In this document: one piece after another, positions 257 to 57,665 of the stretch
How the letters are laid out: each line of letters opens with the position of its first letter
How positions within the stretch are numbered: position 1 is the first letter of the stretch
Origin: Polytrichum commune
Lineage: Eukaryota; Streptophyta; Polytrichopsida; Polytrichales; Polytrichaceae
DNA length: 64,000 nucleotides
Assembly: GCA_950295325.1 (NCBI GenBank)
Contig: OX485808.1
Location: 11,348,501 to 11,412,500 of the forward strand
Direction: 5' to 3'
Position numbers and translations under genes: made by a program
The notes under the pieces: model-generated
The model's database searches: none
The model's input: only the letters and a program-made list of their open reading frames with translations
What the model was told of the DNA's origin: nothing

Positions 257-1250
257 ATTGCAGCGCCGAATCTCAACAACATTCAATCCTGTAAACTCTT
301 CCAAAAAAAAGAAGGAAATACACTTCAATGCGGTGCACTGCTCATGACCTGGTGCAGTCCAAGGATGGATGTGACGAATGACTTAACCTTCTCTTGCAGC
401 AATAAACTGCAACAGATCGAATCGCTTTTTGAGAATTGCAGGAATTCCAATTAAATTGCTTCCACACCCAACAGCAGACGATCCTCCGTGGACTGGAAAC
501 CTAACCTTTTAGTGGTAACACCAATACCATCAAAAATTTGATCTTGCTCCAGAAGATTTTCACAACAAATGGCAGTGCATGTGACACGGCGCGCGATCAA
601 CAAGCATCAAAACCGAATCTCGCACGTAATATTCCAAATTAGATCAACAGATTCACTCCTGTAGATTCTGGAGTCGATAGGAATTATTCATGCACTTCAA
701 AATGACATCGATGTGAGTCGGGTGTGACAGACATGACGATGATCGCACTGCCAATGTCAAAGTCAGTGAGAATTCAAAAGTTGCACTCTGGGAACGCAAG
801 AGTAGAATCCCAGAGACGGAAAGCGGTTAACATGGTCACAATTTCCAAAGTTCCAAAATGGCTAAGCCATGGCATGTTGAACAGACGGTTCGGGGATGGG
901 TTGGGATATTGATTCATATGCACAGGGTATAATGAGTCAGAATGGCATGGGTCCAAACTAGTGATTTACATGTCATTTAAGTTAATTTAAAATGGTCGTC
1001 TAAATCTGTTGACCACTCACGGCCAGCTTATAATAAACCGATTTCTTAGTTTGTCATAACTTACTACGATCAGCGGGTCAAGTTCACTTTGCATCGGCCA
1101 TGTGAGGATTTAGGATGATAGGTTCCATAACCTTCAGCCTTTTCATGCAATGGAAGTCATCAAAGCCTAAAAATCTAGAAGCTTGATGTTGGAGGGAAAC
1201 ATCACACTTTGTGTCCAAAAATGATAGTGTTCCCCTCTCTGATGCAAAGC
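257..1250. other. Intergenic, nothing recognised
   Basis: Only short open frames without recognisable protein similarity. No RNA gene and no repeat shared with the rest of the window that I could see. Confidence 0.5.
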
Positions 1251-1470
1251 ACTACACTGCATACGATATTTAATGTCACTTACTATTGGAGTTACACAAG
1301 GCTATATCATGTCACTATTGATGTAAGCTTTTACCAAGTAAAGTTGTTATTGTTCTATACTATCCAAACAACCAATTTGACATTTGTTGGTAAAATATGA
1401 GATATAGTATATAGATATAGCATTGCGTAATTCCAAATAGTAAGTGGCACTAAATACAATATTTAGTGTA
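1251..1470 (+). mobile_element. R5 family small inverted-repeat element
   Basis: This copy of the R5 family begins near ACTACACTGCATACGATATT and ends with the self-complementary motif CACTAAATACAATATTTAGTG (split here as CACTAAATAC / AATATTTAGTG). Related copies lie at 3711-4012, 31552-31925 and 45052-45391, with a partial one at 18290-18402. It carries no coding frame. The 5'-CACTA...TAGTG-3' ends recall CACTA elements, but no target duplication could be fixed, so the superfamily is left open. Confidence 0.55.
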
Positions 1471-2214
1471 CTTGGTTAGCAAAAGTTATCTAACGAAGAA
1501 ACCCTAATCATTCATGCCAATCCTCGAAGACCGGAGTCATTCTTCTCTTGCCGAGCAAGATATACCCATGTGCCTCTCAGGTCCCCAAGTCAATTTTAAG
1601 ATATCTTAAATAAATCATAAAATCTTGTCATCTTGTCATCTACGATACAACACATGTGCTAAACAATTTACTATCTTTTATATGTAGAACATGAGCATGA
1701 TTTCATGTGAATCCAAGACTTAGATAGTGAAGGGAACTCGGTGAGTAAAGGGAAAGTGACCTCCACAACCATCTCTAAGTAGTGTATGGACTAGGTAACC
1801 CCCAAGGGCTAGGAGGGCATAGCGGGGATACTAAACATAATTGAACCATTTGGACATCCTCCTCTTTGGACCCTCCAATCGTGAAGATGGATGGGCTAGA
1901 TCAAGGATGTAGGAGGACGAAAGTTATTCTTTGGCGAAGTCACCCTCTTCCCCAATCCCATAAGGCCACATTCAAGGCCAATTGCTAAGAAACAACGCAA
2001 TATAGTACATATGAATGGTCTTCAATTCATATGGGTGAGAAGTGTCTCACAAGAGAATACATTGATGAGGTCATTGTCACAACACTTCTAATCCCACTTG
2101 GTTGGAATCCGATTTTGCGTTTCTATTACATGTGCATAATAGCACTTAGTTTTAGACCATGAAGTTTTCCCAAATCACATGGTGAGTAAATGGGGGGTTG
2201 TTTATATATGAAGA
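1471..2214. other. Intergenic, nothing recognised
   Basis: No supported gene; no clear match to the repeat families defined in this window. Confidence 0.45.
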
Positions 2215-2430
2215 TCCAACAACATACCAACGTCCGGGTAGATTTTAAGGCATAATTGGTCGAGATCCTTGTGTTTCCAAGACCAACTGGTTACATGTTG
2301 ACATCTTTTCGGGATTTTTTAATTATATTAAGGAATATTCTATGAATTACTCCAAATGGATCAGTAATTTTCCCAAAGTCTTGAACTTCAACATGTTATT
2401 TCTCAAGCTCAACCGGTTCATCTATAATCA
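2215..2430 (-). repeat. R8 family arm (ACCGGTTGAG repeat), single copy
   Basis: In reverse orientation this matches the R8 arm: an AACCGGTTGAG segment, a segment about finding CTTCAAGACTTTGGGAAAATT, and the ACATGTAACCAGTTGGTC end. Other arms are at 14845-15085, 43195-43420, 46425-47105, 47265-47512, 52925-53160 and 54590-54795. No partner arm is visible next to it, so it is a solo or degraded arm. Confidence 0.6.
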
Positions 2431-2644
2431 GCACTCAATTTACCCCATTCATTGCAAAATATGATGTCAATATCTAAGTCACATAATTTAAAATAGTCTC
2501 ACTCTATCTATACATAATTATGTGGAAGGGGTGCACTCTACGCGATTGGGTACGGTAGTCCACGCATAAGAGAAGAATAAGGTATTATGCCATCTAAATT
2601 CCTTCATTGACCACATTGATAAGTTTTCAAAGGGCCCAACTCAA

Positions 2645-2811
2645 CATAACATTATTAAGTAGTGTGCATTCATTCTATGAACCCTAAGAATATAATCATG
2701 GGATGTTGAAACCTTGTGCAAGGAGACCCAAATTAAGACTAGGCTCCTAGCATCCCATGATTATATTCTCAGGGCCCACAGAACGAACACACACCGTTTA
2801 GTAATGTTATG
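2645..2811. mobile_element. Small palindromic MITE-like inverted repeat (167 bp)
   Basis: The left half begins CATAACATTATTAAGTAGTG and runs to AATATAATCATGGGATG; the right half is its imperfect reverse complement ending CACCGTTTAGTAATGTTATG. The arms are about 60 bp with a central loop near 2706-2745. No protein frame. The CATAACATTATT end resembles that of the R10 elements, so they may be related. Confidence 0.6.
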
Positions 2812-3710
2812 AACTTGCGTAGGGTTTAAGGAAGACTTGTCTATGGGCCGAGTCAACCACACAAATCCATACTTGGATAGGCTAAAGCCATCATCCAATT
2901 GGCTTATATGGTAAATTTATGGAGTAGTATCATTTTGGTTTACGGCATTGAATCAAGTGTTATATTAGAAAGCAACATACCATGAAGCTCAAGCAAGTAA
3001 AGAAGAAATTTACATGCATGAGCTTTGTGGAAGAAATTGGTGCTAATGTCCTTCACATACCAAAAAGCTCAAGCATGTAAGGAAGACAAAAATGTTGCAA
3101 TTCAACAGTCGATGTCACGGTTTATTATATCCAAATTTAGTACCAATAAGGTTTGTGGCCCTTATGTGATCATTCTTCTTGATTAGACGCCTATATTTGA
3201 GCGGTGTAGTGCAAGGCTTGTAATTTTATCAAAAATATATGTATTACAGTATGATTGTAGTTTGCACTCATAATATCATAACACTATTCAATTGTTATCA
3301 AATCTTTCATTTTAATAATATGACAGTGTTTCACCTGAGTTTATCAGGTTGAACCTACTTAGACAAGCATACATACAGTGTAAGTTTAGCACCTTACATG
3401 GCATATTCCTGACCCCACTCAACCTAGTCATTGAGCTTAATAATGCTAACCATCTACTAAACTTAGTAGTTAACATAGTTGGGAAGGCCTATATGAAGTC
3501 ACTCAAGGAGGGAGAGAATCTTCACTTTTAACTCGTAAACTTTTGCATCTCAACTCCATTTTACAACATGAAATAACAATCTTTTCTTCTTCTTCTTTTG
3601 TGACTTGCAAGACAACTCCCAATCCCATGGCCAAAATTATCTACAAAGTATAGGGCCACGTTTCGTAAGAGTTATTATTAAACTATTGAGGTAGCCTTAG
3701 ACAACCACTA
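2812..3710. other. Intergenic with repeat fragments
   Basis: No gene. Around 3185-3215 is a short fragment of the R1 MITE (GCCTATATTTGAG type). Around 3520-3660 is a segment also found diverged near 41530-41690 (TTTTGCATCTCAACTC and following). Confidence 0.4.
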
Positions 3711-4012
3711 CACTAAATATTGTATTTAGTGTCACCAATTCTATTTGTCTTGCTCAATACTAATTATAAACCGCCCGTGTAGTGTCACCAATACTAAATG
3801 TAAACTTAACATTATTTGTCATTCCTTGGAAAAAAAAATTATGGGTAGTATAGGTTTACAATGTTGCAATTGATGTCACTTACTGAGTGATTTTTCATCC
3901 AAGCTTCAATCATCCATGACAACACTGGTAAACTTGTTCATAAGAAATGTCATGAGAAAAGTTACCACATGGACATAACATACGATAGGACATCAATTGC
4001 AAGATGTAGTGT
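3711..4012 (+). mobile_element. R5 family small inverted-repeat element
   Basis: Starts CACTAAATATTGTATTTAGTG and continues TCACCAATTC, closely matching the start of the copies at 31552 and 45052. The right end is degraded. It abuts an R6 element on its right. Confidence 0.58.
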
Positions 4013-4013
4013 G

Positions 4014-4468
4014 CTGCATCATTTGTGATATTTAATGTCACATGTGTAATAGTGTCCTTTGTGTATTGATGTCACTTACCCTATTTTGAGGTGTATGCCA
4101 CATTGATGATTAGCAACTTCACCACAAGTGTCACCCCATGACAATTGGCACAAGTATGTTCAATAGAGCTATGAGTTGCATGCCTATGTTACACAATGAT
4201 CTACAAAGTTGACTAAATTGCATACAAATGACACTTGCCATTAGTATGCTCAAGAATATCTTCCTATTGCATTCTTAAACACAAGACTATCATCTATATA
4301 TCCCAATGTGCTACTCTAAGTGTCATAAATTACATTATTTTCCACCTAAAGAGGTTATGTTGATGAATGGAATCATACTGGCAATTAGAGGGTGACACTT
4401 TTGAGACCTCTAGGCATCCAGTTTAAGCCCTTCACAAATAGTGCACGTGACACTAAATACCATGAACA
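4014..4468 (+). mobile_element. R6 family element, degraded copy
   Basis: Collinear with 44880-45686 (without the nested R5 copy there) and with the reverse of 61997-62366. Ends carry ATATTTAATGTCACATGTG on the left and GTGACACTAAATACCATG on the right. No coding frame. Confidence 0.55.
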
Positions 4469-4868
4469 AACTGTGTACTTATAACTCTACATTGTTGATA
4501 TAGTCAACCAATGGTGGCTCCAACATCGTTAGATGGTGAAATCCTTCACACAAGGCCCATGAGCAACTCAAGTTCCTCTACCATTCATCATACTGCATGT
4601 GGAGACTCCACTTTGTAAGATAGAAGTAGAGATAGAAGAACCAACACAATGACACTAATATGTATGATGGTTTTAAGAACTAAGTATCTGCACAAGCTCA
4701 ATACAAGATTACAACCAGAATATAATCTAAATGGTGTCAATGGGTGCAGTGCCATGCTGGCTTATAAGCCGCTGAAGAATAAGTTAATTTTGCTACCATA
4801 AGGGTCCAATGCCAGTCAGCATAAACAAAACGATTCCACTCAAAAGTAGTCTACATACTACACATGAC
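4469..4868 (-). other. Probable 3' UTR and downstream flank of the seryl-tRNA synthetase gene
   Basis: Sequence directly downstream of the stop codon at 4869-4871 on the minus strand. No other gene and no recognised repeat. The end of the transcript cannot be placed from sequence alone. Confidence 0.4.
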
Positions 4869-22551: not shown

Positions 22552-25500
22552 ATGGGGCGGCAAGCGGGGAAGTTTAAGGGGAAGGGCTTGATTGTGCCCA
22601 AGCAGGAAACTCCCATTTCGGACTACCTGTAAGAAATCTAAACTATTTATTTATTTATTTTGTTTTGTTTTTGTCTTGCTGGTTTTTATTTATTTATTTT
22701 TTTGGTCACTTTTTGAATTCGAAGCTCTGCCATCATTTTGTGTCCCGGATGTTGTTGGGTTGGTATCGAATTTGGGTCGGAGTTGCAAAGATATGTTGGT
22801 TGTGTATGTCATTCAAACTTGACCTAAAAAGGAATTCAACTTCACTCCTTGGTCGTGTCATGTTGGAACTAACTACTGTTGGTTTTCCTTCTGTGCAAGT
22901 GATGATGTGGGTTTGCTATTTTTCTGACTTTTAGATTCCAAGCTCTGCCATCATTTTGTTATGGCGGATGTTGTTGTTGGGTTGGTACCGAATTTGGAGA
23001 TATTTGCAAGATGTGGTGGTCGGAGTTACAACAACAATCTGGGTTATGTATGTATCTTTGTCTACCAAAGTTGACCTAAAAGGAACTTAACTTACTGTCT
23101 GGTCATGTCATGTTGAAACTACTGTTTTTTTTCCCTTGTGCTTTCGGATTTCAAATCTGCATCATTTTGTGTGCTGGATGTTGTTTGGGTCGGTACCGAA
23201 TTTGGGATTTTAATAAGGTAGATGCGGTGGTCGGAGTTGCAGTTTAATCTAGGATATGCATGCCACCTAAACTTGACCTAAAAGGAACACGAACTTGACT
23301 CTCTGGTCATGTCCTTGTACGTAAGTGGCCGATGTGGGTTTTGGGTGTGTGTGGGGTTGCTATTTTCCTTACTTATCGGAGTTCAAGCTCTGCCATCAAA
23401 TATTGTGCTGGATGTGGTTAGGTCGGTACCAAATTTTGAGATTTACTCAAGGGGTAAGTAGATGCAGTGGTCGGAGTTGCAATGTGTCTGGGTTATGTAT
23501 GTCACCTAAACTGTTATATCCTTTTGTGCAAATACTGATGTGGGTTTTTGCAGGACGGCAAGTGGTACATTCCAGGATGGTGATATCATGCTCAACAAAG
23601 AAGGGATCCGTGTCGTGTCCCAGACTCAGAGTTCAACTGTAAGTATTTAAACCTTCTCTGTGTGTCTCTAAGGTACTTCAAAAAAATCCCCTCTTTGATA
23701 AGCTCCTCCTTGGTTTGTTAGAAAATCCAATAGTAGTTATCGTCAACATTGCTGTGCTACAGACATCATCGATCCAGTCTTTGGCTAAAAACCCACCTCT
23801 AAACCAGTTAGCTCCAAATCAGGTGTAATTTAGGGTTACCCCAACTGGTGCAGCATTTCTTATCTCTCCTTGGAGCTTCTCCTGGGTGGTGATGATTTCT
23901 GTCTACATCCTTCAAGAAATGCCCTCTTCTTGTCTTGTTGGAAAACTGAACAGTATCCATCATCATTATCATCATCGATCTGGTTTTGGATACGAACCTG
24001 GTGCTACAGGCATCATCGATTTAGTTTTTAGCTCAAAATCCACCTCTAAACCATTTGGTCTGGTCTGGTCCTCAGTTGTCATGATGGAGTTTGTGTGTCT
24101 GTACAGACGAATCATGGCATTCATTGTAGACAGGTTATCAAACGATGCTTATGTGTCCATTGATTGAAAGTGAGGATAGTTGAGTCAGCTGGAATTCTTA
24201 GTACAGTTCTGGACATCTTGTGCCAGCATGACCAGGGGGTTCATGTTGTGGTTATGTAATTGCATGTGAATCTGTTTGCAACCAGTGTGGCAGTGACATT
24301 GAAATAGGCAACATTAGGTCAACGTTGTTTGTTAGACTGTCAGTTTGTCATTGGAAGGGGATCATTAATGCGTACTCCATTGGCACAAGAAGTGTTGTAT
24401 ATGTACCTGAGAGCGTTTGTACTCGAAGCATGTGGGCTACATTGTGATTATTTGCTTGGATTTGAAAGGTACATGTTTAAAATTCCAAACATTTTGTGAA
24501 ACATTGTTGTGCCTGCTTTCCTTTACTTGTTTTCCTTGTTATCTGTATTATTGTTTCTGCGGAGAGGTTGTTGAATGTTGGAAGTTTGGGTGGAATTTTG
24601 GGTGCAGCCAGCTGCCGATGGGAACATTTCACTCTCAGACCTGGAGACTGTGAAAGTGCTTGGCAAGGGAAGTGGTGGTGTCGTTCAGCTCGTCCGACAT
24701 AAATGGACCAATGAGACTTATGCCTTGAAGGTGAAGCTATACATAATAAATAACCTTTAACACTTATTTTAGAATTGGGTTAAGGTAGATGGGCCGTATT
24801 TGGTTACTTTTTGTTGTTTGCTGCCTTATACTACTTGGATCCGCGAGGTTGAAATTTATGTGCATCTGCAAATGTATATTAAGATAAGAAGCCACGATCA
24901 ATTCCATAAAGTTCTGGAGCTAATCTCAATTCTTTATGAATTATCAAAGTCCATCAACCGTGAGCCATAAGTTGGCCACAAATGTGCCCCCATTTATGTT
25001 GGCTAGTGAGCCTAGAATGGCTAACAACTTTTGAGCATGGAGTCCAAAGTCTTCCAAATACATGTTCTTATTGGTGTCCATTCTTAGAAGTTTACCTAAC
25101 CACTCACCAATCAAATATAGGCGACCAAATTAGGGCCGCTATCTTATCATGGTAGAGGAGACATGTTTGGCCAATCATACAATGTATAGAGTCACAGGCT
25201 CAGTTCTTACTTGTGCAACCATAATGTTAAAATATCTATAGTTTTTTGATGCAATTGAGGTGGTGACTTTGCATGTACCATCGAGAACGTTAGGAGATTG
25301 AGACATAAGTGGCAATGTGCATGTGCAGGTGATCCACATGAATATTGAAGAGATTACCCGGAAACAAATTGTTCAAGAGCTCAAAATCAACCATGCTTCT
25401 CAATGTCCATATGTGGTAGTTTGTTACCATGCATTTTATAACAATGGTTTCATATCCATTGTTCTTGAGTATATGGATGGGGGATCCCTTGCTGATATTA

Positions 25501-27618
25501 TGAAGGAACTGAAGCAGATCCCGGAGCCCAACTTGGCTGTTGTGAGCAAGCAAGTAAGTTCTACATCACAAACGTCCGGAGGCAAAAGTATCATGTAGAT
25601 CCAATAAAATGTTGAAATAACATCACAATTCCATGAATATTGTGGTTAAATAATTCCATCATTTTCTAATTTTCGTCTAATATGTGCTACATCATGCTAC
25701 CACGAAGCAAAGAGTTACATAAGTATAATGCATCAATGTAAGATAATTTAAACCAACAACTATGTAATGAACCACCCTTTGGAAGTTTGTGATCCACACA
25801 TCTAGATATTGGAGTAATCTGGCCAGATATTTCATGCCATATTTTGAAACAATGAAAGCTTGAAATATTTGTTTGATATGGTTTTGAGCAATGGTGGTGG
25901 GCTTGTTGGTGTTATTGAGCAGGTACTCCAGGGGCTAATGTATCTCCACCAAACTCGGCATATTATTCATAGGGATATTAAGCCCTCTAACCTTCTTATC
26001 AACCACAAGGGTGAAGTGAAAATTTCAGATTTTGGTGTTAGTGCTGTATTGGCAAACTCAATGGCTGTGCGTGACACTTTCGTTGGTACCTGCACATATA
26101 TGTCGGTGGGTTCTGAATAACTCTCCTTTGACACGCGTTTTACTCTGTGACTGACTAGCTTAAAATGTTATGTTTATGACCTGGAATGATTATGATTGCT
26201 CTTAGAGTACTGACTTATATTCGGAATCTCGATTTGCAGCCGGAGCGTGTTCTGGGCAGCACATATGGATTTGACAGTGATATTTGGAGTTTAGGGTTGA
26301 CGCTTTTGGAGTGTGCGTTAGGAAGATACCCTTACCAGCCCCCTGGAAGTGAGGAAGGCTGGATGAATTTCTATGAGCTTCTTCAAACCATTGTCGATCA
26401 GCCTCCTCCTGTTGCACCCTCTGACCGATTTTCTCCAGAATTTTGCTCTTTCATTTCAGCATGGTAATCCTTTTGCATCCATTATATTGCACCTGTGCCA
26501 TGACTTACATTAACACTTGGAAAATTCCATGCAGTTGTGTATGTTCATCTTAGCATATCCTTTTAAATTGAGTTCTCAGTGTGTATTCATATTTAACATT
26601 TTAACTGAACTGGATGGAGTGGGAGACCGTCAATTTTAAACCTGAAGGGCTGGCATGTGACAGTTTGCAGAGAGACCCCAAGGCTCGACCATCTGCAGCC
26701 GAACTTTTGGTAAGAGTCTGTGGACCATTGAATGACTCGTAACAACCCTCTCACGTGTTAATATTTAAACAACAATTGTACCAACTATGTTTCTGTTTTT
26801 GAGGTGATCAGGTATGTCCTAGTGTCATTCAAAATCTGCTTTTCCTATGCGTGCTTAGCCCCAAACCGAAGGACAAGGTCTTACTTTTGGAATTCATACA
26901 TGGGTAGACTATGCGTAATCATAAGACTACGGGTAGACCATGTGAATTATATTACTATTGGTAGACTAAAAGTATTATATTTTGTAGAGGTTTCAACTTA
27001 TTGAAAAGTGACATGTGACACTCTTTTCAAAATTTGAATTAACTTCTGTCGAAAGTAGATGGGTATTAAGCGGTTACTTTATCTGACTTGCCCACTTCTC
27101 CTAGGATATGAAAGCACAAGATGGTTAGCAAATCCAAATCGAGGCTGTAGCCACTTTCCAAATAACTTTTGGAGCTCATATGAATTTGTTATTCATTACC
27201 ATAGTGAAGAGTCTCGTGCTCATTAAATGATCATAAACATTCCCCCAATCATGTTGATTATTGAGCCTATAATGGTTATCAAATTTTTGATCACGAAGTC
27301 CAATTTCTTCTAAACACATGTCTTTTTGGGTATCTGTTCTTGGAGCCACACCAAACCACATACCACTCAAATATAGGTGTCCCAATAAGAAATGTAATCG
27401 AATAAGGGTTGTCTACTCTACGGTATTACAGGTGTTGCTATTATATCATGGTACCTGATTATTCAGTTATTGACACCTTTGAGCAAAATCAACGGAGAGC
27501 GTTCTTCTAAATTTGTGAGTATGTGATATTATTGCAGAACCATCCATTTGTGCAGAAGTACAATGAGCAGGAGTATGGACTGGCCACCTTGTTACCCCCT
27601 CTACTACCTCTTGCGTAG
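22552..27618 (+). CDS. MKK6: Group-A MAP kinase kinase, MKK6-like, eight exons
   Basis: Dual-specificity kinase that phosphorylates a MAPK; MKK6 orthologs act in cytokinesis and stress signalling. Exons 22552-22628, 23554-23638, 24608-24730, 25329-25553, 25923-26105, 26240-26463, 26664-26709, 27538-27618, all GT-AG with phases that join, giving 347 residues. The start is followed by a basic docking-like stretch ending L13-I-V15, then FLTASGTF-like [13 protein letters not shown]. The kinase has glycine loop GKGSGG (73-78), ATP lysine K95 in [12 protein letters not shown] at 186-193, DFG at 206-208, the plant S/T-x5-S/T activation site S216-x5-T222, and SPER at 231-234. Odd points: the loop reads GTCTYMSPER where GTYNYMSPER is usual, and the C-terminus ends shortly after HPFVQKY. 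Introns 3 and 7 hold R1 MITE copies; introns 1 and 2 are tandemly repetitive. MKK1/2-like is the alternative. Confidence 0.96.
22722..23553 (+). repeat. Four tandem units of about 220 bp filling MKK intron 1
   Basis: AAGCTCTGCCATCATTTTG or a variant starts at 22722, 22940, 23153 and 23385; each unit continues with GGTCGGTACCGAATTTGGG-type sequence, GGTCGGAGTTGCA, CTTGACCTAAAAGGAA and GATGTGGGTTT. The last unit's GATGTGGGTTTTTGCAG is the splice acceptor of exon 2, so acceptor-like ends are repeated through the intron. Confidence 0.8.
23709..24060 (+). repeat. Two tandem diverged units in MKK intron 2
   Basis: A block from TTGGTTTGTTAGAAAATCC through GTGCTACAGACATCATCGAT to CCACCTCTAAACCAGTT (23709-23820) recurs as TTGTCTTGTTGGAAAACTG through GTGCTACAGGCATCATCGAT to CCACCTCTAAACCATTT (23932-24055). 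Confidence 0.7.
24781..25148 (+). mobile_element. R1 MITE family copy in MKK intron 3
   Basis: Begins TAAGGTAGATGGGCCGTATT just 50 bp after the exon 3 donor and ends near GGGCCGCTATCTTA. Same orientation as the host gene. Family landmarks GAGCATGGAGTCCAAAGTC and ACCACTCACCAATCAAATAT (diverged) are present. Confidence 0.7.
27052..27420 (+). mobile_element. R1 MITE family copy in MKK intron 7
   Basis: Begins AAGTAGATGGGTATTAAGCG, carries AAATCCAAATCGAGGC, GTGCTCATTAAATGATCATA and CATACCACTCAAATATAGG, and ends GGGTTGTCTACTCTA. Same orientation as the gene and as the copy in intron 3. Confidence 0.75.
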
Positions 27619-31925: not shown

Positions 31926-32632
31926 AGTTGTGTGCAGAAGCTTATATGCGAGCTATATATGGCATAGCTTGTGGTTAAGAACAAACACCAAAATGAAATG
32001 TGTTGCGATGAGATTGACCTATACATGTACTCATAAAACAAGAATTGAATGAGGCAATTTACAATCCCATCCAACAGCCCATGATGTATGACAAACCTAC
32101 TTTAAAGCTAAAAGAAAGTCAGAATGTAAAACATAGAAGTGAAAATAAAAATAAAAATAATTCTTCATTATTTATTTATTTTATGACCGAAATTGCTAGA
32201 AATGACATTCCAAAACATCATACAAATTCGAACGAATGTGTCAATATTTGAATGATTGTCGACAATTTGACTTTCTCGAAAAATTCGAAGACGGAAAAAG
32301 CATGGGTGTATTTATGTGGGGCTGGAGGTAGTGACGGTTATAGGGCCGCCTACCTGAGCCCCGGCCCGGCCCCTTTATTCGCAAAGCAAATTGAGGAGCT
32401 TTGGGGGAATAAATTAAAAGGTCATAACTTAGTTCTTCCGGTCTTCCTTCTAGTTAGTTACTTACGTGTGTCTTAAAGCGGACTTTTAATTTCTTCTGTG
32501 GCTGCAGGGCCTGTGACAAAACAAAAAAAAATGATTCACAAGGGGGAGACAAAACATGTAGTCGCAATTGATGAGCAAGTGCCAAAGTCTCACTTGGGAG
32601 GTGTATATGATGGGCCTTACATGTGGGTCACT
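31926..32632. other. Intergenic flank of the nested hAT-like elements
   Basis: No gene. Ends in the target site GGGTCACT (32625-32632) of the outer element. Confidence 0.45.
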
Positions 32633-34629
32633 CGAGGGGAGTTCACTGCGATAATATTAGAAAACAACGTGCGGGAAAATATAGGGTAATTTATATTCAC
32701 AAAAGGAAAAACTTAGAATTTTCTTAGAAGTAATATAGGTGAGTATGTATGATTATTTTTTTATTATAAATAATATAGGCTTGATACAAATAATGCATAT
32801 TCTTAAAATATTTGTAAAAATATACTGTAGGATTTAAGGATCCTAGGTTTTTTTTGAAATAGGGTGTCCTTTGTGTTCAGAGGCGGGAAGATTTTGGATG
32901 AAAAACTACGTCGATTCAGTTGAAAAAATGGGATGAAAGATTGATGAGGGCGGATGACGGATTCCTGGGTTTAGGATTAAAGGCATGCATTATTTGTTGA
33001 TTATATACTAGTGTTCTCTCGGGGAGTTCACTAGACATGTATATATGTATACACGTGCGTGACAAGCGTATTTATTCAAGGGGTATTTAATTATCCATCC
33101 TTAATTTTTTGTACCGTATTATTATATAATTTCTAATTTTTTTTTTAAATGACCCTATAATTACTTTAAAATTTGATGAAGCTCTAATTTTAAGCTAGGT
33201 ATGTTCATTATAATTCTTTTATTTTGCTCCAAAGGGTTTAAGAGCATTCGAAGTACTAAGTCACCAAAATCCAAGGCACAACAAGGTTTTACATTAAGAG
33301 TGTTCATAAACAATTTCAAACAACAAAATCAACCCATGTTCCTCAATCAAGTTACACGCACAATTAAACACAACGGTACTGAGTGTAAAAAAAACAATTA
33401 AAACACCAACAACAAAGCAAGAAAAAATAGGGTCCATGCAATAATGTAGAAGGGTATAGAGTTAATACTACAGCATCCTGCTTGAAGCAGACAGACACAA
33501 GACCAACCAAAACTCCTCTAATTTATCTTGAGAAATTGTTTCTAGCATTTAAAAATACTAGCAAAACTGTTCATAGCAAATGAAAGATGTCATGTTCATC
33601 TTGCAAAACAATTCCTAGCTTTTAAGAACACTAGTATATAATCAACAAATAATGCATGCCTTTAAACCTAAACCCAGGAATCCGTCATCCGCCCTCATCA
33701 ATCTTTCATCCCATTTTTTCAACTGAATCGACATAGTTTTTCATCCAAAATCTTCCCGCCTTTGAACACAAAGGACACCCTATTTCAAAAAAAACCTAGG
33801 ATCCTTAAATCCTACGGTATATTTTTACAAATATTTTAAAAATATGCGTTATTTGTATCAAGCCTATATTATTTATAATACAAATTTTATCATACATACT
33901 CACCTATATTACTTCTAAGAAAATTCTAAGTTTTTCCTTTTGTGAATATAAATTACCCTATATTTTCCCGCACGTTGTTTTCTAATATTATCGCAGTGAA
34001 CTCCCCGAGAGTGTTCTTAAAAGCTAGGAATTGTTTTGCAAGATGAACATGACATCTTTCATTTGCTATGAACAGTTCTGCTAGTATTTTTAAATGCTAG
34101 AAACAATTTCTCAAGATAAATTAGAGGAGTTTTGGTTGGTCTTGTGTCTGTCTGCTTCAAGCAGGATGTTGTAGTATTAACTCTATACCCTTCTACATTA
34201 TTGCATGGACCCTAGTTTTGCTTGCTTTGTTGTTGGTGTTTTAATTGTTTTTTTTACACTCAGTACCGTTGTGTTTAATTGTGCATGTAACTTGATTGAG
34301 GAACATTGGCTGATTTTGTTGTTTGAAACTGTTTATGAACACTCTTAATGTAAAACCTTGCTGTGCCTTGGATTTTGGTGACTTAGTACTTTGAATGCTC
34401 TTAAACCCTTTGGAGCAAAATCAAATAATTATAATGAACATACCTAGCTTAAAATTAGAGCTTCATCAAATTTAAAAGTAATTATAGGGTCATTTAAAAA
34501 ACAAAAAAATTAGCAAATTATATAATAATACGGTACAAAAAATTAAGGATGGATAATTAAATACCCCTTGAATAAATACCCTTGTCACGCACGTATATAC
34601 ATATATACATGTCTAGTGAACTCCCCGAG
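32633..34629 (+). mobile_element. R2 outer hAT-like non-autonomous element, interrupted by its own relative
   Basis: Terminal inverted repeats CGAGGGGAGTTCACT at 32633-32647 (two changes from CTCGGGGAGTTCACT) and AGTGAACTCCCCGAG ending at 34629. Flanked by perfect 8 bp duplications GGGTCACT (32625-32632 and 34630-34637). Removing the inner element and one 8 bp duplicate leaves 997 bp. AT-rich, no transposase frame. The 8 bp duplication is the hAT hallmark. Confidence 0.88.
33018..34009 (-). mobile_element. R2 inner hAT-like element nested in the outer copy, opposite orientation
   Basis: Perfect 15 bp terminal inverted repeats CTCGGGGAGTTCACT / AGTGAACTCCCCGAG, flanked by AGTGTTCT at 33010-33017 and 34010-34017 (8 bp). 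Its 992 bp are the reverse complement of the outer element with only scattered differences, so the two copies are close relatives and the inner one is younger. Together they form interleaved inverted repeats, X-Y-X'-Y'. Confidence 0.9.
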
Positions 34630-34637
34630 GGGTCACT

Positions 34638-38050: not shown

Positions 38051-38913
38051 AAGGTAACTAGACCATTAATGGACATTTATACCTCAATACCCACTTCTTG
38101 TCGGATTTGAAATTAGTACAAGATGATTAGCAAAATGTATTGTGCCCATAGCCTCATATTGTTGGGAACCCATATGACTACCTTATCACGGGTAGATCAC
38201 TCTAAGGCATTTTTGTGCACCACGTGCGGCTGGGGTTTTTTTGTTTTGGGGCTATTTACCTTCAAGGGCTGAATTAAAGCCTCCCTATAATTACTTAAAT
38301 TTCAAAAATGGCCCATTTGTTTGCACCCTTCCATTACTTATATTGTCCAAGTCACTATAATTTTTTGTACTCTATATTCATTTTAATCCATTTTTGGACA
38401 GACGGAAATCCCAATTATCATCCATCCCCGTGAGTCCTAAACCCATTTACATACCATACTAAACATACCTTCTAGGATCCTTATCTTCAACCCCTATATT
38501 AATTTTACAAAAAAATAATGGCCCACGTTTTATGTCCATCTAAGTTACTTATAATGGGATTGTCTACATTTAATGGCCCCTTCATTATTTGGAATTCCTT
38601 TATAATTTTTAATTCAAATGATTTTAATCCTCTCTATATTATGCCGCACGTCATTTTTAAAATGTACTAAGTGATCTACCCGTGTACCTTATTCATAATC
38701 AAACTGAGGATTCATTTTCTTATCAAATGATCATATAGATGTTCCCAATTATATTCCAATTGAAAGGAGATTTCTTAACAAATTTTGAGCATGCAGTTCG
38801 ATTTCTTTTACACACATGTTGTAGTTGTTGTTACCCAACCACATACCACTCAAATATCGATATCCATTTAAAATGCGTAATTGGTTTAGAATCACTTATC
38901 TTACATTGTTGGT
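38051..38913 (+). mobile_element. R1 MITE family copy, split by a hAT-like element
   Basis: The left part (to 38186) has CCCACTTCTTGTCGGAT and GATGATTAGCAAA; the right part (from 38685) resumes with TTATTCATAATCAAACTGAGG and ends near ATCACTTATCTTAC. The interruption at 38187-38684 is the R3 element. Confidence 0.7.
38187..38684. mobile_element. R3 hAT-like non-autonomous element, 498 bp, 8 bp target duplication
   Basis: Perfect 15 bp terminal inverted repeats CACGGGTAGATCACT at 38187 and its complement ending at 38684, extended imperfectly to about 45 bp. Flanks are TACCTTAT at 38179-38186 and 38685-38692, an exact 8 bp duplication. No coding frame. The terminus resembles that of R2 (C-x-CGGG-x-AG-x-TCACT). 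It sits inside an R1 copy and so is younger than that copy. Confidence 0.88.
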
Positions 38914-56351: not shown

Positions 56352-57665
56352 TCACGGGTTTACAAGTCCCCTGTCCCTGTTGATACTATGTTCCTCTTCT
56401 ACACCAAAGCAATTTTGGGCAAACTCCACACCAGCGAAATTCGGCAGCAGATCAGTGGGCTTCGAGAAGCAATTTTGCAAGTCGAGGCTTGGAAATTCCA
56501 CCACCGCATTACTAACACCCCCACATTGGTGTTGATGATGATGTTGTTGCTGCTGCTGGGGGGTTATGTGAGTTTGATGAGTTTGCATGTTGTGAGATGA
56601 TGGTGGTGATGGTGATGGTGATGGTGATGGTGATGGAGATGGAGATGGAGATGGTTGTTGACGCATCATTTCTCTATCCCTTCGCATCTCCAGCACTTTC
56701 TTATGTGAATGCGAATGCTTAGCTGCAACATAGGTCGGTGACCCCGCAGGTCGATACTCAGGAAGCAACCTCCCAGACTTGAACCTCACACCACAAGCAT
56801 TACAAAGGGTTTTAGGACCCATGGGTCCGGTTCGCCATTGAGGAGTCCTCTGAGTCTGACAATGCATGCAACGCCATGGCTGGGTTATGTCTTGGTTCTT
56901 CTTCTTCGACTTGCTGCTGCTGTTACTCACATTCTGATGATGGCTGTTCTGATGGTTGCTGCTTTGGTGGTTGTTATGTGTGGTTTTGCACCGTTTTGAG
57001 CTTTGAGAGTTTTCCTCGCCATCTTGGTCCTCTAATCCGCTATTGCTGTCACCAGAGGCACCTGGCGATGGTGAGAAGGACATGGAAGCATATGAAGATT
57101 CGGGTCCCATCATAGACTCGAAGCTGGTAACTGAAGAGCTTGTAGACAGAATGCGAGATGTCCAAGTGCGTGCACCGGTGCGTGACCTTTTGCTTCTTGC
57201 CCTTCCAGGTACAATGGAGTATCCGCAGTCATGGCTGGTTGTGAGCTCCGATGATGTTGCACTATTCTCCAGGACAGACACGGGGCTGGACTTGTGGTAT
57301 AAGTCATCCTCCTCTTCTTCTTCTTTGTCTCCCTTGCCTCCGCCAAAGGCTTTGGTCATCGAGTTGGCCATGTCGATGATGCAAGAGGTTGTTGTTGTTT
57401 CTGCTGCTGTAACTGCGAAGCATGTCTCTTCGCATGGGTAGAGCGTCTGAGTGTCGCCCATTGTGAAAGAGTCCTCCACGAAACTGGAGAGCCATTCCAG
57501 GTCCGCAAGGTCGTCACACTGTGAATAAGAAACACATGGAAATGGCAGTCAGCTTCCTCTTCTTCTTCTTCGTCTTCTTCCCCACTCCTCAATAAGCTCC
57601 GAAACACGAACTCGTTATAGCTAATTGTCCACCAAGCGACATTACCAAATTATTTGGCGAGGCTC

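Follow-up and report, generated by a model that had tools for sequence, protein, structure and literature searches.

Reversed self-insertion of a short, recently mobile DNA transposon in Polytrichum commune and its probable relation to a lineage with a large transposase

What event, and what kind of transposon, gave rise to a long interleaved inverted repeat in the moss Polytrichum commune? The repeat lies at positions 32625-34637 of a 64,000-nucleotide stretch, here called the window (assembly GCA_950295325.1, contig OX485808.1, positions 11,348,501 to 11,412,500). The initial annotation, made from the letters of the stretch, had read it as a hAT-like element of about 1 kb with a copy of itself inserted in reverse, both with intact 8-bp target site duplications, and as a member of a recently active family. 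The insertion is borne out by the analysis reported here and the superfamily is not: with a probability of roughly 0.8, the locus is a reversed self-insertion of two protein-less members of a recently active DNA transposon family, which belongs to a lineage with a large transposase and not to a recognised hAT group. The nest itself is a well-preserved event of an already known kind; what is added is the apparent membership of the family in a lineage whose large transposase escapes the standard models.

Direct reading of the sequence, a repeat finder and alignment all agreed with the coordinates first noted for the locus, and its parts are listed in Table 1. The outer element amounts to 997 bp (32633-33017 plus 34018-34629). 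Its two halves were aligned against the reverse complement of the inner element, as the initial annotation had proposed, and 961 of 992 aligned positions were identical (96.9%), with 5 gap columns and 31 substitutions; the two are members of one family of about 1 kb and lie in opposite directions. When the inner element and one AGTGTTCT were excised in silico, the outer element became continuous and the join was without a gap. The unoccupied target AGAACACT is still present in the inner element, and the 24 bases around the inner target are unbroken and exact in 35 of the 42 aligned family copies, both window elements counted. Because of the duplications, the exact inner tips and the continuous outer element, the structure is attributed to insertion and not to inverted duplication. 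The repeat finder returned ungapped inverted arms of 496, 389 and 135 nt with complementarities of 97, 97 and 93%. The termini were perfect in the inner element, whose tips are the 15-bp CTCGGGGAGTTCACT, but not throughout the outer one, where the left tip reads CGAGGGGAGTTCACT with CGAG for the CTCG of the family, a two-base change private to this element among the 42 aligned copies. The longest stop-to-stop frame within the window elements is 73 codons, and neither the Rfam nor the tRNA scan gave a match in the window. The outer target GGGTCACT was also considered as the tip of another element, and with the flanks joined no partner end was found in the window.

Table 1. Parts of the nested locus and its two predicted duplexes, in window coordinates.
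Feature	Position	Strand	Basis or remark
Outer 8-bp target site duplication, left copy GGGTCACT	32625..32632		Sequence read, alignment
Outer element, left part, 385 bp	32633..33017	-	Equals the inner element's right part reversed; tip CGAGGGGAGTTCACT
Inner 8-bp target site duplication, left copy AGTGTTCT	33010..33017		Made of outer-element sequence
Inner non-autonomous element, 992 bp, CTCGGGGAGTTCACT tips at both ends	33018..34009	+	Sequence read, genome search, alignment
Inner 8-bp target site duplication, right copy AGTGTTCT	34010..34017		Sequence read, alignment
Outer element, right part, 612 bp	34018..34629	-	Equals the inner element's left part reversed
Outer 8-bp target site duplication, right copy GGGTCACT	34630..34637		Sequence read, alignment
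Shorter duplex, arms 32629-33017 and 33625-34013	32629..34013		389 nt, 97% complementary
Longer duplex, arms about 33018-33632 and 34010-34629	33018..34629		Favoured in the predicted fold, 594 pairs

The host assembly (407.8 Mb in 64 contigs, seven of them large) was searched with the inner element, and 42 matches were scored from 211 candidates, comprising 40 full or near-full copies at 95-100% identity, the inner element included, and the two halves of the outer element. The proposed search for same-ended copies gave 301 exact occurrences of the 16-base tip CTCGGGGAGTTCACTR against 0 for the pattern read backwards, so the tip is not a chance pattern; places are known for the first 100 of the 301 tips. 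Fifty-nine copies were fetched, 39 from the inner-element search and 20 as tip pairs, and the left tip was unrecognisable in one. The 8-bp duplication was identical in 8 of 8 bases in 53 of the 58 two-tipped copies, in 7 of 8 in four and absent in one, a proportion favourably biased by the 20 tip pairs, which were picked for having both tips. A lack of such duplications in genome copies had been named beforehand as an outcome that would refute the annotation, and it was not observed. No target position was fixed among 63 duplications. Mean divergence from the consensus was 2.0% in 42 near-full copies, most of which were chosen as nearest to the window element, so that young copies may be over-represented. 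The closest pairs of copies differ at 2 of 993, 3 of 999 and 4 of 997 positions and have unrelated flanks, from which it follows that the family moved recently, as had been proposed. Internal deletion accounts for the length classes, from 573 to 1403 bp, whose members have both ends in common and are collinear with one parent. Being short and without coding capacity, with conserved ends, at least 40 near-full copies and 301 tips, the family is one of miniature inverted-repeat transposable elements (MITEs). Nesting of the family in itself was not seen elsewhere: none of the 58 other copies had a family match in the 100-200-bp flanks, and wider 1.5-kb flank pairs gave weak short matches in two of seven (38 bp at 82% and 46 bp at 78%).

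Two family tips on C1 lie 16,243 bp apart and delimit an element at C1:45381017-45397259 (L080 and L079), which matches family members over 652 bp at 96.8% at its left end and over 823 bp at 90.1% at its right end, and is flanked by the duplication CTCTATAT/CTCTATGT with 7 of 8 bases identical. Ten frames between these tips matched no transposase family in Pfam, hAT included; their matches were weak (E 0.037 and above), to unrelated families and below the cut-offs, and in NCBIfam five frames of the element gave weak unrelated matches alone. When the genome was searched with one frame, 121 of 1,142 candidates were scored and yielded 122 matches, at least ten of which sit in open frames no shorter than 1,490 codons. 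The best-matching relative, L092, is open from stop to stop over 1,549 codons. Aligned back to the 16-kb element, residues 30-1549 of the L092 protein were recovered in six blocks, 34-63% identical, all on the minus strand between the tips and with stops in five of the six, while the plus strand carries a seventh block, another fragment of the C-terminal part of the transposase. Exact forms of three of the four putative catalytic motifs described below are present in this broken copy. The 16-kb element so reads as a decayed full-length relative of the short family, one that also holds other insertions. A 694-aa frame inside it (L080:4497-6578) resembles by eye a 552-aa frame in another locus, L049, described further on.

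The L092 locus carries a variant tip, CTCGGGGGGGTCACT, of which a pattern search found 26 in the genome, against 1 for the pattern read backwards. Two of these tips, at C3:22755306 and C3:22761107, flank the L092 open frame and delimit a sister element of 5,802 bp (C3:22755306-22761107) with 26 perfect inverted end bases and the duplication AATCTAGA, identical in 8 of 8 bases. It thereby has the hallmark of DDE cut-and-paste elements, terminal inverted repeats with a target duplication of fixed length. Counted from the first methionine, the proteins of L092 and a second member, L093, are 1,493 and 1,509 residues long. In the numbering of L092:403-5049, the motifs are AEDETK (D756), SDGDSRRR (D875), DQDFIHNGKK (D922xxH925) and SCEIFF (E1117). 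L092, L093 and a 39%-identical member all keep these four sites, with AEDETK, SDGDSRRR, DxxH and CE(I/D)FF as the common motifs; the 39%-identical member, read as three short pieces, has AEDETK, SDGDSRRR, QDPLHVGKK and CCEDFF. The motifs point to a DDE-type enzyme.

The large protein was also compared with reference collections. No Pfam match was found for the L092 protein (1,548 aa) at E up to 5, nor, with E up to 10, for L093 (1,509 aa) or for a 401-residue stretch of L092, the HMMER filters discarding most matches above about 0.1. PDB sequences gave unrelated matches alone (E 0.48 and above), L092 had no match in PHROGs, searches of IMG/VR, GTDB prokaryote contigs and plasmids gave no homologue of the large protein, and no description of this transposase lineage was found in the open-licence texts searched. 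Within the genome the 401-residue stretch gave 110 scored matches with identities from 100% down to 32%; 12 of the 110 fall in open frames at least 1,490 codons long, and in nine of these 12 the match is free of stops. A copy of the stretch with 100% identity lies at C2:3112797-3113999, and there 100 bp of the end next to the gene start likewise match without a difference. Some tens of places in the genome (such as C1:46747438-46748088) match the last 215 or so residues of the large transposase alone, at about 43-46% identity and in short open frames, mostly of 224-268 codons, as if the C-terminal part had spread as a separate element. In the right flank of L037, a family member adjoins a relic of the same C-terminal region (29 residues, 52% identical).

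The origin proposed for the locus begins with two steps that can be read in the sequence. An element of about 1 kb entered GGGTCACT and duplicated that site, and a second copy of the family entered AGTGTTCT inside the first, in the opposite direction, duplicating that site in turn. Both copies would have been moved by a transposase supplied in trans from full-length relatives with CTCGGGG...TCACT-type ends, 8-bp duplications and a protein of about 1,500 residues with D, D, DxxH and E; the family would then descend by internal deletion from this transposon lineage, and not from a recognised hAT element. The four resulting ends alternate in orientation, as in the double Ds of maize, and transposase could pair the wrong ones; with its altered outer tip, the composite as a whole may be harder to excise. 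Read-through from a promoter would yield a long hairpin RNA, as proposed for the Mu killer locus of maize.

Several observations weigh against this account. The sole long element seen with exact family ends is degenerate and carries other insertions, and an intact transposase with CTCGGGGAGTTCACT ends was not seen among the first 100 of the 301 tips listed. The link between the sister element and the window family consists of 13 of 15 tip bases, a weak subterminal likeness (72% over 76 bp, E 2e-4; 68% over 109 bp, E 0.008) and the protein blocks, 34-63% identical, shared with the 16-kb copy. In the copy on C2, the C-terminal match is interrupted by a TAG, and the fetched sequence did not reveal the second end of that copy. 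The catalytic role of D, D and E is read from motifs. Finally, hAT transposases are abundant in the genome, and mobilisation in trans by one of them is possible.

The classic double Ds is in reversed orientation. It shares with the present locus a short non-autonomous copy inside another, 8-bp duplications and four ends of alternating orientation, and differs in its C/TAGGGATGAAA tips, in place of CTCGGGGAGTTCACT here, and in that the relatives with similar ends here encode a protein not recognised as hAT. Nested Ds elements are the rarer form, probably through acquired chromosome-breaking properties (PMC3260210).

The initial annotation had also predicted a strong double-strand potential and two mutually exclusive foldings. 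For the 2,013-nt RNA of the locus, the predicted minimum free energy (MFE) was -1117 kcal/mol for the plus strand and -1122 for the minus strand, against -423 +/- 12 in 12 shuffles, in agreement with the first prediction. The two foldings do exclude each other in one nested fold but are not of equal weight. In the best fold of the plus strand, the longer arm forms 594 pairs and the shorter arm forms none; the energy was -729 with the right strand of the longer arm held unpaired and -1035 with the left strand of the shorter arm held unpaired, so that the conformer with the arm of about 610 bp is favoured by about 306 kcal/mol over that with the arm of about 385 bp. These energies are for a single molecule with nested pairs, pseudoknots and pairing of two transcripts lying outside the model.

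Such a fold raises the question whether the locus is a silencing locus like Mu killer, a transcribed hairpin giving small interfering RNAs (siRNAs) against the ends of the whole family. This would be unlikely, though it is the rival reading that survives best. In addition to the folding energy, 954 of 1990 24-mers have their reverse complement within the locus, and both ends of the 16-kb relative, between which its transposase gene lies, are represented in the arms. There is a precedent in Mu killer, which is likewise an inverted duplication of transposon ends with hairpin potential (PMC3440606). On the other hand, transposase coding sequence was not detected in the arms or elsewhere in the locus, unlike in Mu killer, the structure arose by insertion, and of the 11 window frames scanned, those with matches lie at least 6 kb away. 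The likeness to a silencing locus is one of anatomy.

The transposon lineage proposed here for the family has in turn to be set against the hAT superfamily, whose tips are of the C/TA-R-N-G type. Position 2 of the left tip is T in 58 of 58 copies, and G in the outer left tip of the window, and the tips are unlike the C/TAGGGATGAAA of Ac/Ds (PMC3260210). The 8-bp duplication, perfect in both window elements and in the 53 family copies, is shared with hAT elements (Ac, Tip, Buster), which also have short inverted ends (PMC3942097). It is, however, undecisive, because P elements, like hAT, make duplications of about 8 bp (PMC3706591) and the Zisupton duplication is 8 bp (PMC12730594). The proteins differ in size, with about 1,500 residues here against 643 in BuT2 and 807 in Ac (PMC3260210), as do the elements, 5.8 kb here against 2.5-5 kb in hAT (PMC3942097), and a Pfam match is lacking here. 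As a control, the hAT dimerisation model PF05699 was scored on 150 of 1,060 candidates in the same genome and gave at least 150 matches over the cut-off, and none of these 150 places falls between the tips of the 16-kb, 5.1-kb or 5.8-kb elements. A search for an autonomous hAT relative had been proposed with the annotation; the same-ended long element gave no hAT transposase match, nor did L092 or L093. With these tips, a large protein without a Pfam hAT match and a duplication that is not diagnostic, the name hAT-like was not supported, and the window family is probably not the hAT element that it looks like.

It would nevertheless account for part of the data if the family were a true hAT MITE moved by one of the many hAT transposases of the genome, the large transposase in the 16-kb element being a passenger. 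The duplications and short inverted ends suit this, as do the many hAT matches and a weak target bias among the 63 duplications, with T at positions 2-3 (24 and 28) and A at positions 6-7 (27 and 23), which pairs positions 2/7 and 3/6. The tips, the absence of hAT matches from the ten frames of the 16-kb element and the location of the listed PF05699 places all tell against it, and a passenger is hard to square with a large open frame between perfect matching tips in the 5.8-kb sister. This explanation is considered quite improbable. Origin of the X-Y-X'-Y' repeat by inverted duplication, aberrant repair or misassembly is barely credible, since, long and 97% matched as the repeat is and easily as assemblers can be misled by such structures, the two different perfect 8-bp duplications, the exact inner tips, the continuous outer element and the 31 substitutions between the copies do not fit it.

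If the large-transposase lineage is accepted for the family, its nearest relatives among known superfamilies may be considered. A DxxExFF pattern lies at the last acidic residue of P transposases, and both P and KDZ models are included in Pfam, where the large protein found no match; in this it would differ from P and from Zisupton/KDZ. With P it shares duplications of about 8 bp and the DxxH motif, with Zisupton/KDZ 8-bp duplications (PMC12730594); among transposases, DxxH or CxxH is described for hAT, Kolobok, P and MuDR, and Dada has DxxH (PMC3706591). Dada elements also have a very large transposase with DDE and DxxH, and are 4.7-11 kb long (PMC3706591). They differ in duplications of 6-7 bp inside small RNA genes, against 8 bp and varied targets with no fixed position here, and in that Dada-U6 and Dada-U1 are without the terminal inverted repeats seen here. 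A P-like lineage is the nearest guess, from motifs and in part from general knowledge of P transposases. Tentatively, and with the odds somewhat against it, the elements may represent an undescribed superfamily of plant cut-and-paste transposons with CWCGGGKNGNTCACT-type ends, 8-bp duplications and a DDE transposase of about 1,500 residues with DxxH, recently mobile and comprising several short families.

Further nests were observed in families with related ends. At L087 (3833-5819), a member of the window family lies within a 1,987-bp element of the CACGGGTAGATCACT type, and at L082 (3750-5138) a 496-bp element sits in a family member; in both nests every element has its own duplication, with 7 or 8 of 8 bases identical. 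The window itself has a second element of the same end type at 38179-38692, 498 bp long, with CACGGGTAGATCACT tips at both ends and the duplication TACCTTAT (8 of 8 bases). Its relatives lie at L077, L084, L087 and L094, and beyond the tips its likeness to the nested family is weak (76% over 50 bp for the relative L094).

One copy of the window family, L049, is 5,060 bp long (C1:63608573-63613632) and was rejected as an autonomous element, being a member of about 1.3 kb with an insertion of about 3.7 kb. The insertion has TG...CA ends, a 5-bp duplication ATGTA and two frames without a transposase match. Within the fetched locus (C1:63608373-63613832) it spans about 780-4500, where long internal repeats are absent and the 552-aa frame has weak Pfam matches below the cut-offs; it is perhaps a solo long terminal repeat (LTR) with a coding frame. 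Elsewhere in the window, pieces of a protein kinase gene lie at 24575-26467 on the plus strand, with two of four kinase matches over the Pfam cut-off and by eye a resemblance to plant MAP kinase kinases, and a 398-aa frame with a GATA zinc finger lies at 56352-57548 on the minus strand.

The nested locus is a clean natural analogue of the maize double Ds, and would be of use in finding out if insertions of this reversed kind lead to chromosome breakage or give rise to silencing. Tips and duplications are the grounds on which plant MITEs are mostly sorted into five superfamilies, one of which is hAT (PMC12550479). If 8-bp families such as this one are of another transposase lineage, some "hAT" MITEs would be mislabelled and the true mobilising enzyme overlooked, and if the superfamily tentatively outlined above is real, its short derivatives would probably be listed under hAT elsewhere, given that plant MITEs are classed in this way. 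The long open frames make this question of classification testable.

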